From a virus, in the IMG/VR virus record IMGVR_UViG_3300030329_004239, positions 1-22,860 of that record: 22,860 nt of DNA. One strand, written 5' to 3'. A program made the translations under genes and the position numbers. The notes below the pieces were generated by a model, which worked only from the letters and a program-made list of their open reading frames with translations, made no database searches and had not been told where the DNA came from. Each line of letters opens with the position of its first letter. Positions within the stretch are counted from its first letter, which is position 1. Below are positions 8,353 through 12,178 of the stretch, in pieces.

Positions 8353-8544
8353 ATGTTAGTAAACGAAGAAATATCTCAACTGAGAATAATGATTACTAAA
8401 CAAAATCAAAAAATAGAGCAGTTAAAGAAGATTAAAAATATAGCTATGATTGCTCTTGAGGCTATAGAAGAAACTGGACAAGATAATATTGCAGGATTGG
8501 CTATGTCAGAAATTGACACTATCCAAAAGTTTCCTAACGATTAA
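8353..8544 (+). CDS. Small helical protein (63 aa), last plus-strand gene
   Basis: CGAGGAAAAA precedes the ATG, and a candidate promoter lies just upstream. The first 30 residues form a charged coiled coil (ISQLRIMITKQNQKIEQLKK). The rest holds a helix rich in Ala, Met and Ile (IAMIALEAIEETG) and an acidic end. Its last 11 bases overlap the convergent metallopeptidase gene. Function unknown. Confidence 0.6.
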   Translation: MLVNEEISQLRIMITKQNQKIEQLKKIKNIAMIALEAIEETGQDNIAGLAMSEIDTIQKFPND

Positions 8545-8836
8545 CTAGGTCTAGTTTACCAGCCAAATACTCTCCCAAACCTAACTGGTTCAGCGAGTTA
8601 GCCAGAATCTGTGTCTTTCTTTCATCAAGGTCCACATCAATAGAAGAATCAATTGCGTGTAATATTTCGTGCAATAGAGCTTCTCCTAATTTAGATTTAG
8701 AACAATCTTTTTCAAGTTCAATAACCTGGAGGGAGTTATTAACTCTCCCCCAGATTTTGATATTATCAGATGTATGAAGGTCTTCTACCAGCTTAATTTG
8801 ATAGGTATGACCACAAATATCGACAAGTGCATCCAT
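8534..8836 (-). CDS. HExxH zinc metallopeptidase-like protein (100 aa)
   Basis: LLHEILHAID at 54-63 is the HExxH zinc site (His56, Glu57, His60), and LDERKTQILANSLNQLG downstream gives a candidate third ligand at Glu72, as in compact ImmA/IrrE- and SprT-like phage metallopeptidases. The N-terminal half is a beta sheet (KIWGRVNNSLQVIELE). It is the final gene of the late operon, starting in a TAATG overlap. Possible roles include cleaving a host regulator or virion protein, but the substrate is unknown. Confidence 0.75.
   Translation of the reverse strand: MDALVDICGHTYQIKLVEDLHTSDNIKIWGRVNNSLQVIELEKDCSKSKLGEALLHEILHAIDSSIDVDLDERKTQILANSLNQLGLGEYLAGKLDLVNR
8543..8556. repeat. Inverted repeat at the convergent gene junction
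   Basis: AACTAG-GT-CTAGTT is a perfect 6-bp inverted repeat starting on the stop codon of the plus-strand gene and lying inside the end of the convergent gene. Neither strand shows a U-run after it, so it is at best a weak terminator or a protein site. Confidence 0.25.
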
Positions 8837-8982
8837 TATTTCTTAAACTTATCAAAAATAGGTTTAAGTATCATATCGAAAATAACATCGTCTTTTTGAG
8901 ATGGACTAAGTTTTACAACTTTCTCTACTACATACATACCTAGTAGAATCCATTCCCAGTTGCTTGTTATGAATGACATCAT
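8836..8982 (-). CDS. Small protein with hydrophobic N-terminus (48 aa)
   Basis: ATGATG at 8982/8979 has AAGGAGAG six bases upstream; the first ATG is chosen. The product has SNWEWILLGMYVVEKVVKL, a short possibly membrane-associated helix, then SPSQKDDVIFDMIL and a basic end. This pattern recurs in phages next to lysis genes, from memory. It shares TAATG with the metallopeptidase. Function unknown. Confidence 0.65.
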   Translation of the reverse strand: MMSFITSNWEWILLGMYVVEKVVKLSPSQKDDVIFDMILKPIFDKFKK

Positions 8983-9167
8983 TTGAATCTCTCCTTGAGT
9001 TTATTTAGTTTACCTTTTGACTTTTTCAAAATAGCAATATCCTTTTCAATGTCTTCTATATATTGACCATATTTATTTATATTTTTTTGGATTTGCTTTA
9101 TCTGAACATCAAAACCTGTAGATTTTATTAAGATGTTTCCTAATATTTTTAAAATAGAGTTCTTCAT
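8979..9167 (-). CDS. Small coiled-coil protein (62 aa)
   Basis: It starts at the ATG at 9167 and its stop overlaps the next gene's ATGATG. It has a short N-terminal hydrophobic helix (ILKILGNILI) followed by a Lys/Ile/Glu-rich coiled coil (IQKNINKYGQYIEDIEKDI). This layout resembles small phage spanin or membrane-tethered proteins, but no lipobox or signal peptide is present. Its ribosome site is weak. Function unknown. Confidence 0.6.
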   Translation of the reverse strand: MKNSILKILGNILIKSTGFDVQIKQIQKNINKYGQYIEDIEKDIAILKKSKGKLNKLKERFK

Positions 9168-9189: not shown

Positions 9190-9300
9190 TTATACTATAA
9201 AAGGATTAAATAGTTCCATTAATCTATATAATGTAAACGCTAATGATAGTGCCAGAATAGGCACAACAATGTCGATGAATTTATTTATTCGTTTCCCCAT
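9190..9300 (-). CDS. Tiny membrane peptide (36 aa)
   Basis: ATG at 9300 lies inside the end of the upstream membrane gene (16-nt overlap) and fills an otherwise empty gap. The peptide has a basic N-terminus (MGKRINKF), then about 18 hydrophobic residues (DIVVPILALSLAFTLYRL) and a short tail, the shape of a single membrane helix. The ribosome site AAGAG is very close to the start, so translation is probably coupled. Support is moderate. Confidence 0.5.
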   Translation of the reverse strand: MGKRINKFIDIVVPILALSLAFTLYRLMELFNPFIV

Positions 9301-9470
9301 TCTCTTATTTTAAGATATAAAGTGACAAGCCCAATAATAATTCCTATCACTAAAGATACGAAACTTAATATTGGATTTAATACGCCTAAATAATGTATAA
9401 TTCCCGAACCCATACTTGTTGTTATTCCTATTTCTGGATATGCTGATAATGTATTTAATGTATCTCTCAT
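9285..9470 (-). CDS. Small membrane protein, holin candidate (61 aa)
   Basis: TAGGAA precedes the ATG, three bases after the upstream stop. Residues 20-54 contain GIIHYLGVLNPILSFVSLVIG then IIIGLVTLYLKIREW: one or two hydrophobic helices with a basic-aromatic end. Small proteins of this kind in phage late operons are often holins or holin-like. The lysozyme-like gene lies in the same operon about 2 kb upstream. Holin activity cannot be shown from sequence. Confidence 0.6.
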   Translation of the reverse strand: MRDTLNTLSAYPEIGITTSMGSGIIHYLGVLNPILSFVSLVIGIIIGLVTLYLKIREWGNE

Positions 9471-9473
9471 TTC

Positions 9474-9836
9474 CTATTTCTCTTTACAGTCATCCCATCT
9501 CTTCAAGTCAAGCATTTGTAATGGCTTTTCAATAAGATGGTCTTTTAGCTTATCGTTTTGGATTGACACTTTATTTCCACCCTTAACATAAGGTTTTCCT
9601 TTTGCACAACCCACTTCATAGACAAATAATATTGTCTTCCACATACCTACTCTTACAACTCTAGCAGGTCTTTCATCAAATATAATAACATCATCAGTAT
9701 TTAAGTCGTTACCAGCAAAAACTTTAATAGCTTCTATAGCTGATTCCATACTCTTTCTGCCAATTAAAAACAAGAATGCAGTTATGATTATCCAACCATA
9801 CTGTCCTAAAAGTGCCTCTATACTTTCCTTTTCCAT
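9474..9836 (-). CDS. Single-helix membrane protein with MscS-like beta domain (120 aa)
   Basis: Residues 11-25 (YGWIIITAFLFLIGR) form one membrane helix. The rest reads FAGNDLNTDDVIIFDERPARV, MWKTILFVYEVG, then GGNKVSIQNDKLKDHLIEKP. This order matches the cytoplasmic beta domain of MscS-family mechanosensitive channels: [GD-V] strand, [T-x-hydrophobic] strand, then [PN-x-L-x-x-x-I-x-N]. The usual three membrane helices and C-terminal alpha-beta part are missing. It could be a membrane-tethered remnant, a host-channel mimic, or an unrelated small fold. Neighbours are holin-like. Confidence 0.6.
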   Translation of the reverse strand: MEKESIEALLGQYGWIIITAFLFLIGRKSMESAIEAIKVFAGNDLNTDDVIIFDERPARVVRVGMWKTILFVYEVGCAKGKPYVKGGNKVSIQNDKLKDHLIEKPLQMLDLKRWDDCKEK

Positions 9837-9842
9837 TTACAC

Positions 9843-9950
9843 TCATCTCGTAAAAATTAACATTAGCAACATTATTACCTTGTCAAGTAGCCATAATAAT
9901 ATAAGAACAGAAAGTTTGTTTTCAATAATTTTTCTATCATTTGTTTCCAT
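9843..9950 (-). CDS. Tiny membrane peptide (35 aa)
   Basis: ATG at 9950 overlaps the end of the phosphoesterase gene by 14 nt, and its TGA at 9843-9845 lies just before the next gene's start. After a charged start (METNDRKIIENK) it has about 18 hydrophobic residues (LSVLILLWLLDKVIMLLM), a clear membrane segment. It fills what would be an empty 100-nt gap. The ribosome site is weak and coupling is likely. Confidence 0.5.
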   Translation of the reverse strand: METNDRKIIENKLSVLILLWLLDKVIMLLMLIFTR

Positions 9951-10719
9951 CTATCAGTTCGCCCCATACCGTGGTTCTACCTTTTATTATTTCAACTACC
10001 TCAACTTTAAAATCTCCATTATGAAAAAAATCTACAATTGCAAAAGCGTGATTCCAATTATGAAGATTTCCTTTTAACCACTTGTTTTTTTGAGAGGTCA
10101 TATCTTTTAAACATCCCATACTCCAGGCACTTTGAGTTCCACCTAATCCTGTTTCTGTGAATCTTTGTAGGTCGTGAGTATGGCCATACATAATATTCTC
10201 TTTAAAAGATGCTAAGTGTTTTTTAGCGTGGTGTATAGGAACATAGTTTCCGTGTGTAAAATTAAGTTTTCCTATCTTTAACTTGTCATCAGATATATAT
10301 TCCCAATATTCATATCCTCTTTTTTTTATATTTAAAGCATTTTCAGTTTTATACTGAGGGAGATATGGATGCTTGTCAACAAAATTATCTAACCATAATT
10401 CGTGATTACCTTGTATAAAATACCTCTTCTTACATTTAATTTTATCAAGGGACTTATCTATTATATCCATACCATCATTTACAGATTTAACCTCTTTGTC
10501 CAACATAGGAATTAAAACCTCTAATGGTGGTTTCTCCTTATTCTTCCAATAATGATTACTAAAGAGTTCCCACTCTCCAGTATCACCTAAATCTATATAA
10601 GTGTCTGGCTTTACAAGTTCTATAGCTTTACAAACAACATTTATTGCAGCATAATCTGCTATTGGAAAATGCTTATCTGGTGTAACTATAGCTCTTTGTT
10701 TAAGCCATTTAGGGTTCAT
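9937..10719 (-). CDS. Calcineurin-like metallophosphoesterase (260 aa)
   Basis: All five sequence blocks of the family are present: D15-x-H17 (PDKHF), G45-D46 (DLGDTGEW), N105-H106 (QGNHELW), H156 (NFTHGN) and GHTH with H180 and H182. These bind two metals and hydrolyse phosphoester bonds. Phage members are often annotated as phosphatases or DNA nucleases of the SbcD/Mre11-like superfamily, but the substrate here is unknown. It sits in the late operon between DUF2589-type genes and small membrane genes, which is not a typical DNA-repair position. The length is normal for a single domain. Confidence 0.88.
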   Translation of the reverse strand: MNPKWLKQRAIVTPDKHFPIADYAAINVVCKAIELVKPDTYIDLGDTGEWELFSNHYWKNKEKPPLEVLIPMLDKEVKSVNDGMDIIDKSLDKIKCKKRYFIQGNHELWLDNFVDKHPYLPQYKTENALNIKKRGYEYWEYISDDKLKIGKLNFTHGNYVPIHHAKKHLASFKENIMYGHTHDLQRFTETGLGGTQSAWSMGCLKDMTSQKNKWLKGNLHNWNHAFAIVDFFHNGDFKVEVVEIIKGRTTVWGELIDGNK

Positions 10720-10737: not shown

Positions 10738-11190
10738 TCAAGGTATTTGTTTAATTAAATTATTGTTTAATCTAACAAGTCCTTCTGGTGGGTCAGTACT
10801 TTTAAAGGTAATTTCTAAATCAGCATAATTATTACGACAAGGTAAAATAGAAGCTCCCAAGTCTGCTCCTATTGCACCTGCATCTTCTTTTTTAAAGATA
10901 CCACCACCTAATCTAGACTTCCTTTTACCAAAATTATTCAACTTAACCTTTAGTTTCATTTTGACTTCAGACATCTGAATGGAGTTCTGAGGAGCTAATG
11001 TTTGTAATGGTACATTAACGTCTTCTCCATTAATAACCCATTTCATTTCTTTAGGAGTACCATCTTCATTTCTAAACTTACTTAAAGATTCTATATGTTG
11101 ATTCTCGGCTAAAGCATTAGCTTGAACTACTGCATCAGAAAGACTTTTAGTTAAGTGGTCTAAAAAATTACCTTTTTTGAATTTACCCAT
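10738..11190 (-). CDS. Divergent DUF2589-type paralogue (150 aa)
   Basis: It overlaps the upstream DUF2589 gene by 8 nt. It shares with it the same layout: an N-terminal Ala/Gln-rich helix (SDAVVQANALAENQ), V-x-VPL in EDVNVPLQTLAP, a strand pair EVKMKLKVKL, and an end with Asp/Pro-PEGL (STDPPEGLVRLNNNLIK). Residues 90-115 form a Gly-rich loop. The two look like products of an old duplication. The function of the family is unknown; in this operon a virion or membrane-associated role is possible. Confidence 0.65.
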   Translation of the reverse strand: MGKFKKGNFLDHLTKSLSDAVVQANALAENQHIESLSKFRNEDGTPKEMKWVINGEDVNVPLQTLAPQNSIQMSEVKMKLKVKLNNFGKRKSRLGGGIFKKEDAGAIGADLGASILPCRNNYADLEITFKSTDPPEGLVRLNNNLIKQIP

Positions 11191-11719
11191 TAGACGGTGT
11201 ACTGTCTTTTTGTTTGCCTATTGAATTGTTAAGCATATCTAACACTTTCATTAATCCTTCTGGTTTTTCTTGTTTACCTTTAACGGATATTGAGTATTTA
11301 GCAGATGAATCTGAACTTCTACTATTCTCACTATGATGCGATACTTTACCTTCAAACTTAGCACTCCAACAACCCCAACCTACTGATGCACTTGCAGTCG
11401 CACTAGAATCTGTTGATGATTTACTTGCCGATTGTGCTGATACTTCCATCTCAAATTCAACATCAATAGTATCTACGCATAGGCTAGGTATATTAATGAT
11501 TGATAATAATGGAACATCTAATGCAACACTTTCAGAACCATCTTCATATTTAAACGCAACCGACTTAGTATTCCCATCTTTATCCATACCCACTTCTTGT
11601 ATGAATGAAGCAGTTGTTGCTGCTAAAGATTTTTGACCATCAGATGCTGCTATGAGTGGTGCTGCTATTAAAGTTTCTATTGGTAAGCCAGTGAATTGAC
11701 TTGCTATTGAATCTGCCAT
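11183..11719 (-). CDS. DUF2589-type protein (178 aa)
   Basis: The start MADSIASQFTGLPIETLIAAP and helix DGQKSLAATTASFIQEVG, then DVPLLSIINIPSL, IDVEFEMEV, a Ser/Ala-rich stretch (about 95-145) and KPEGLMKVLDMLNNSI match the DUF2589 pattern I know from bacteria. The Ser-rich centre ends with SSRSSDSSAKYSISV-like spacing, a feature of the family. No function is established. It is flanked by a lysozyme-like gene and a shorter paralogue. Its ribosome site overlaps the end of the lysozyme-like gene. Confidence 0.75.
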   Translation of the reverse strand: MADSIASQFTGLPIETLIAAPLIAASDGQKSLAATTASFIQEVGMDKDGNTKSVAFKYEDGSESVALDVPLLSIINIPSLCVDTIDVEFEMEVSAQSASKSSTDSSATASASVGWGCWSAKFEGKVSHHSENSRSSDSSAKYSISVKGKQEKPEGLMKVLDMLNNSIGKQKDSTPSNG

Positions 11720-12178
11720 TTACTTCTCCTTTGGTTTGTTATTAGATAAAAAATGTTCAACAGTTCCTTTTCCAAGCCTTGTATTATATACTCTCTTCCA
11801 ATATTTTGCTTGTTCCTCAATTTTATCTTTATTGGGAATAGGTAATCTGTCTCTTCTATATTTTATTCTACAAAAAGCTACTTGTAATGCCACATTTGAC
11901 ATTAAAGACATCTCTGGATTGTCATCATTATACCCTAAATAGTATATTTTTTGCTTCAATCCATCTCTGTAAGATACATAATTTTCCATAATATCTTTCA
12001 TAGTATTTGGTTCACACTGAAAAAACCCTAAAGCAGGACCATCTCCCATTTGCTTTAAGTGATTATACTTAGTTTCAGCCATACCAGTTCTATATACAAG
12101 AGCAGATGCATCATCTGAATGCATATTCAAGTATTTCAATGTCCAATCTATTATAATCTTTATATCGTTTTTTACCAT
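11720..12178 (-). CDS. Lysozyme-like transglycosylase / endolysin candidate (152 aa)
   Basis: GGAGGATAG precedes the ATG. Residues 28-38 (VYRTGMAETKY) place E35 as the likely catalytic acid, and DGPALGFFQCEPNT (46-59) matches the GxxQ-x-P-x-T segment of phage lysozyme-fold proteins. The C-terminal part has AKYWKRVYNTRLGKGTVEHF, typical of the same family. It would cut peptidoglycan either for lysis or from the tail tip. The membrane genes downstream in the operon favour lysis; the structural genes upstream leave a virion role open. No signal peptide is seen. Confidence 0.7.
   Translation of the reverse strand: MVKNDIKIIIDWTLKYLNMHSDDASALVYRTGMAETKYNHLKQMGDGPALGFFQCEPNTMKDIMENYVSYRDGLKQKIYYLGYNDDNPEMSLMSNVALQVAFCRIKYRRDRLPIPNKDKIEEQAKYWKRVYNTRLGKGTVEHFLSNNKPKEK

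Follow-up and report, generated by a model that had tools for sequence, protein, structure and literature searches.

Background

In tailed phages the genes for host lysis (holin, endolysin, spanin or disruptin) form tight late clusters in which the endolysin lies alongside small transmembrane (TM) proteins. Phage-derived cassettes of holin, endolysin and spanin also constitute the Type 10 secretion systems, which release Tc toxins and exoproteins (PMC10847048). The DUF2589 domain (PF11655 in Pfam) is barely named in the literature that we searched. To our knowledge no function has been assigned to it. Here we describe a pair of DUF2589 genes from a phage, for which the setting in phage lysis cassettes is what is new.

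The whole stretch of DNA that was analysed (hereafter the window) spans the 22,860 bases of an IMG/VR virus record and has a GC content of 32.8%. On its plus strand are replication genes coding for a DnaD/O-like initiator, a Holliday junction resolvase and a 2OG-Fe(II) oxygenase; the late genes, one of which codes for a 1538-aa structural or fibre-like protein, are on the minus strand. The window is therefore a fragment of a phage genome.

Results and discussion

A pair of overlapping DUF2589 genes

The first-pass annotation had described two overlapping DUF2589-type paralogues in a late operon, with VPL and PEGL motifs in common, and this description holds throughout. Gene A (11183..11719, minus strand; 178 aa) and gene B (10738..11190, minus strand; 150 aa) overlap by 8 nt within the late minus-strand operon, and both products contain the VPL motif (LDVPLLSI in A, VNVPLQTL in B) and the PEGL motif (KPEGL and PPEGL respectively). 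Profile searches, repeated in six frames, matched both proteins to PF11655 over nearly its whole length and above the curated Pfam cut-off of 23 bits, A with 109.4 bits (E=3e-31; profile positions 1-154) and B with 36.6 bits (E=7e-9; positions 2-154), the latter being the match of the 150-aa protein on which the assignment had been made to depend. Both genes are under purifying selection, differences being 2-3 times as frequent at the third codon position as at the first or second. A is acidic (pI 4.7) and contains a region of Ser/Ala-rich amphipathic hairpins, and B is basic (pI 9.35).

No PHROG family matched A or B, and the sole DUF2589 match in INPHARED was MT839761, an unannotated 4-kb GenBank record (MT839761.1, 'Bacteriophage sp. 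clone scaffold_11738'; our locus L046). Over the DUF2589 gene this record matches a Segatella copri contig at 99% identity, and it is probably bacterial DNA, not phage; on account of that identity we rejected it as a DUF2589 phage. The earlier statement that the family is known mainly from bacteria is in line with these searches. Separately, four short ORFs of 97-115 aa (G023, G064, G137 and G157) match the DUF2589 profile only from position 1 to positions 41-51, suggesting that the N-terminal helix of the domain may also occur as a separate unit.

The pair is older than the phages that carry it

The direct similarity of A and B is not significant on its own (BLASTP E=0.03 over 18 aa), and profiles built from the phage proteins only gave a probability of 2.6% in a profile comparison. 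Once bacterial relatives are added, the homology of the A-type and the B-type profile is clear (97.8%, E=8e-13). In a tree of 76 DUF2589 domains, in which several branches are long and the fine placement is unsure, phage B falls in a 19-row clade with bacterial B-type domains from ten loci (support 99/98), and phage A clusters with the A-type partners from nine of those same ten loci (100/94). Since phage B thus joins the bacterial B-type and phage A their A-type partners, the pair is older than the phages, and the tree rules out a recent duplication of one gene within them. The two are paralogues, as had been proposed, but the split between them is ancient. By these comparisons the phage carries a matched two-gene set that is also present in bacteria.

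Scans of viral sequences, with peptide patterns that favour close relatives of A and B, recovered A at 43 loci and B at 39; the two co-occur wherever the viral contig continues, nearly always overlapping. Across this phage family the mean pI is 4.9 for A and 9.1 for B (range 5.9-9.6, mostly basic), so that an acidic A and a basic B would fit a complex of the two.

Plasmid and genome searches found DUF2589 genes, often in pairs or triples, in Bacteroidota, Vibrio, Burkholderia, Streptomyces and a deltaproteobacterium. Those of Bacteroidota, Vibrio, the deltaproteobacterium and Streptomyces plasmids resemble the phage proteins in matching the full-length profile and in their VPL and PEG motifs, and several bacterial lineages have A-type and B-type operon partners as the phages do. 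Unlike the phage copies, which are shorter and lie within lysis cassettes, the bacterial ones have additional genes in their operons, either for a 91-94 aa protein or for the proteins that we call c1 and c2, none of which is seen beside the phage pair. The 91-94 aa family (c8) accompanies bacterial A/B-type pairs in three lineages (L221, L088, L089, L090) and has no match in Pfam or NCBIfam.

The phage pair lies among lysis genes

Gene A is directly abutted by a gene for a 152-aa protein (11720..12178, minus strand), which by its motifs is lysozyme- or transglycosylase-like. It matches phrog_3108 (1.6e-30), a PHROG of unknown function, and its family conserves a lysozyme-like pattern consisting of A-E-S/T (the Glu in G-M-A-E-S/T), GPAxGFFQxEPxT and YWKRVYNT. 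A lysozyme fold was not confirmed when solved structures were searched with a profile of the family. The lysozyme-like label given to this neighbour in the first-pass annotation is thus supported by the motifs and the gene context of the family, while a solved relative was not found. In other phages the 152-aa gene is followed, without A/B, by genes for 50-80 aa TM proteins and a metallophosphoesterase; the window has the same kinds of genes with A/B in between.

Downstream of B on the minus strand come a 260-aa metallophosphoesterase (9937..10719; phrog_221, 1.5e-23), a 120-aa protein with one N-terminal TM segment (9474..9836; hydropathy 1.83) and a 61-aa protein that its topology, with a strong TM segment (9285..9470; hydropathy 2.56), marks as holin-like. 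The last of these has a sub-threshold match to Phage_holin_2_1 (E=0.045), and TM proteins of 50-80 aa that are similar to it follow the 152-aa gene in other phages. Beyond it lie a 62-aa coiled-coil protein (8979..9167) that is weakly XhlA-like, with sub-threshold XhlA and YwqH-like matches, and a 48-aa TM protein (8836..8982) of a family, here termed TM50, that recurs in these cassettes. A metallophosphoesterase of the phrog_221 type recurs beside the lysis-type genes of these marine phages (window 9937-10719; L154-L204), including the 152-aa family and BhlA-like genes, and some of these enzymes have a zinc-ribbon N-terminus. At the end of the late operon is a 100-aa protein (8534-8836) with a zinc-metallopeptidase-like motif, HEILHAID.

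The same kind of neighborhood recurs across the phage family. An endolysin or small holin-like gene is directly adjacent to A/B in 22 of the 25 non-redundant phage loci, against a mean of 4.1 and a maximum of 10 in 500 draws of random anchors within the same contigs, which may be incomplete; the pair is by this count encoded inside holin/endolysin gene clusters. For endolysins alone the count is 7 loci (null mean 1.0, maximum 4). The terms holin-like, BhlA-like and XhlA-like are assigned from size and topology only, and a Pfam search of the holin-like neighbors returned no holin match. Lysins of five types are seen at or close to A/B. They are the 152-aa family, an M15 peptidase (phrog_465 endolysin, 3e-37), a lysozyme-like family of 180 aa, an SLT-like protein and, with a metallophosphoesterase in between, a T4-type lysozyme (PF00959). 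Directly upstream of A in related phages the commonest gene codes for a 102-aa BhlA-like protein with a TM segment and a coiled coil, and the others code for the M15 endolysin, the 180-aa lysozyme-like or the SLT-like protein. In 31 loci a 73-aa XhlA-like gene directly adjoins the 102-aa BhlA-like gene, and in 7 other loci A-B lies exactly between the two; the loci without A-B are natural empty sites. In 34 of 42 loci the start of A lies no more than 25 nt from the upstream gene, so that it has no space for a promoter of its own; promoter- and terminator-like sites in the A/B region are near chance. This position among lysis genes suggests a role in cell lysis.

Exchange between divergent phages

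Between two large contigs, of 48.9 and 54.5 kb, the A proteins are 80% and the B proteins 76% identical, whereas TerL, portal and MCP reach only 25%, 26% and 23% and the metallophosphoesterases 54%. Of 67 loci of the 152-aa family just 1 contains A/B, and of 78 M15 loci 5 do; since most of these loci are without the pair, lysis proceeds without it. By the five lysin types, the empty loci and the contrast of 80% and 76% with 23-26% identity, A/B is a mobile module, accessory to the lysis cassette, that is exchanged between distantly related ocean phages while staying with lysis-type genes.

Topology and predicted structure

Despite this location, the two proteins do not resemble the classical components of tailed-phage cassettes: they gave no match to the known families of holins, spanins or disruptins and have neither a TM segment nor an evident signal peptide, which argues that both are made in the cytoplasm. 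The maximal hydropathy over 19 residues is 0.57 in B and 1.74 in A (at the VPLL strand region), short of a holin TM segment, and the window proteins have neither a lipobox nor the N-terminal TM segment with a periplasmic domain that a spanin would have. AlphaFold models are of low confidence (mean pLDDT 63.7 for B and 53 for A), and with these models a Foldseek search of the PDB returned nothing below E=0.4; a sequence search of the PDB with A and B also gave no match. A viral structure library yielded a single match, an unnamed viral protein of 148 aa that shares 75% identity with B, and structure was accordingly set aside as a guide to function. Individual strands of the Ser/Ala-rich region of A are amphipathic by their beta moments (p 0.004-0.013), and a region-wide test over the hairpins, where the AlphaFold model is unreliable, was passed by only 7 of 38 homologues. 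These strands were assessed with a beta pore-forming protein in mind, in which amphipathic hairpins build an oligomeric barrel in the membrane. We also considered, through a lipobox scan, that A/B might replace spanins. No convincing lipoprotein spanin came to light in two large contigs, but the control set was just as poor, phages that carry A/B not differing in this from those that lack it, and the scan bears little on the idea.

Bacterial operons and wall hydrolases

Many Bacteroidales operons have the order DUF2589, c1, DUF2589, zinc ribbon, muramidase (PF11860), some of them with a LytTR regulator, and no obvious signal peptide was seen at the start of these muramidases. The deltaproteobacterial DUF2589 plasmid also has a muramidase, the Vibrio plasmids have an SLT transglycosylase (one with a Mor-type regulator), and of the flavobacterial loci one is near a CHAP protein and another near an M15 peptidase (within about 2.2 kb). 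Among 27 sampled DUF2589-bearing Bacteroidota genomes, however, only these two, out of 31 muramidase, M15 or CHAP matches, are close (~2.5 kb), an enrichment over a rough expectation of <0.1 and yet a minority pattern, so that a general link between bacterial DUF2589 and wall hydrolases is ruled out. Most sampled loci outside Bacteroidales are not near cell-wall hydrolases. The expectation that bacterial copies would lie near phage-like genes is accordingly borne out for some, beside endolysin-type muramidase, M15, CHAP, SLT or Mor-type genes, but not for most of those outside Bacteroidales.

These operons recall the Type 10 secretion systems in that some are near wall hydrolases without an obvious signal peptide and some near large secreted-type proteins; they differ in that the association is sporadic and confined to single loci and that no holin was identified in the operons. 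Several other arrangements were seen in passing. L124, L131, L225, L229 and other Bacteroidota loci have an operon of DUF2589, c1 (~230 aa) and c2 (~190 aa), the latter two families having no Pfam match over the cut-off, and in several loci a protein resembling S8 subtilases (tested against Pfam in L131) follows. A single locus, L136:186-6818, has DUF2589-c1-c2 followed directly by a 1398-aa SpvB/TcdB-like protein (Tc toxin B-type), and Vibrio plasmid loci lie near genes annotated as toxin-like, again as single observations. That c1 might be a hidden B-type was ruled out by profile comparison (2.3%).

Archaeoglobus is without a bacterial-type wall. Archaeoglobus fulgidus is also reported to have DUF2589 genes, AF0414-AF0417 (PMC3949148). 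Given this occurrence and the restriction of the hydrolase link to a bacterial minority, DUF2589 in general is not a wall-lysis family.

A possible accessory role in lysis and its alternatives

The reading that we favor, tentatively and at a little less than an even chance, is that A and B form a two-subunit accessory lysis factor that constitutes a mobile lysis-cassette module in certain marine phages. The acidic A and the basic B would associate in one complex that is produced late, in the cytoplasm, alongside the endolysin; after the inner membrane has been opened by the holin, this complex could get to the envelope and there help to complete or speed lysis, perhaps acting on the membrane through the amphipathic Ser/Ala-rich beta-hairpins of A. 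The first-pass annotation had suggested a place in the virion or at the membrane, and as virion proteins A and B might be decoration or tail components, as their late operon, the fibre genes beside them in the window and the portal or terminase genes that adjoin them in other phages would allow. We do not favor this, as the context points to lysis instead: the pair is far more conserved than capsid, portal and terminase and is exchanged independently of them, is absent from most phages with related lysis genes, has no structural match in PHROG, and recurs in bacterial operons in which we noticed no genes for capsid proteins. A virion role is hence very unlikely.

An unlikely but more serious competitor is that the pair is late cargo, serving host manipulation, superinfection exclusion or counter-defence, with the cassette as an insertion hot spot and no part in lysis. 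The rarity of A/B among phages with the same lysis genes, its swapping between divergent phages and the existence of related pairs in bacteria would all agree with cargo. Against it, neither a promoter nor a terminator of its own is above chance, and A is packed against its upstream gene; moreover, A/B keeps to lysis-type genes even where the wider gene order differs. The soluble nature of the proteins and their coupling, with no evident export signal, to endolysin or holin-like genes could also befit a cytoplasmic regulator of lysis (an anti-holin, an endolysin inhibitor or a timing factor), and some bacterial copies do adjoin LytTR or other regulators; yet the pair accompanies endolysins of unrelated folds, which makes the binding of one enzyme unlikely, and we regard this as rather improbable. 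Returning to the accessory lysis factor, a bolder version of it, which we would call improbable, is that A/B pairs represent a new class of envelope-disrupting two-subunit lysis factors of bacterial origin, serving marine phages that took them up as an alternative or supplement to spanins and bacteria, with their own endolysins, in programmed lysis or the release of large proteins.

Conclusion

The presence of a mobile, conserved two-gene module in lysis cassettes provides the first concrete and testable hypothesis, namely lysis, for DUF2589, and the phage pair copies an ancient two-subunit arrangement that bacteria have as well. Should A/B act on the envelope, it would represent a lysis protein of a new type; should it be cargo, lysis cassettes would serve as a hot spot for a bacterial system whose role has yet to be assigned.
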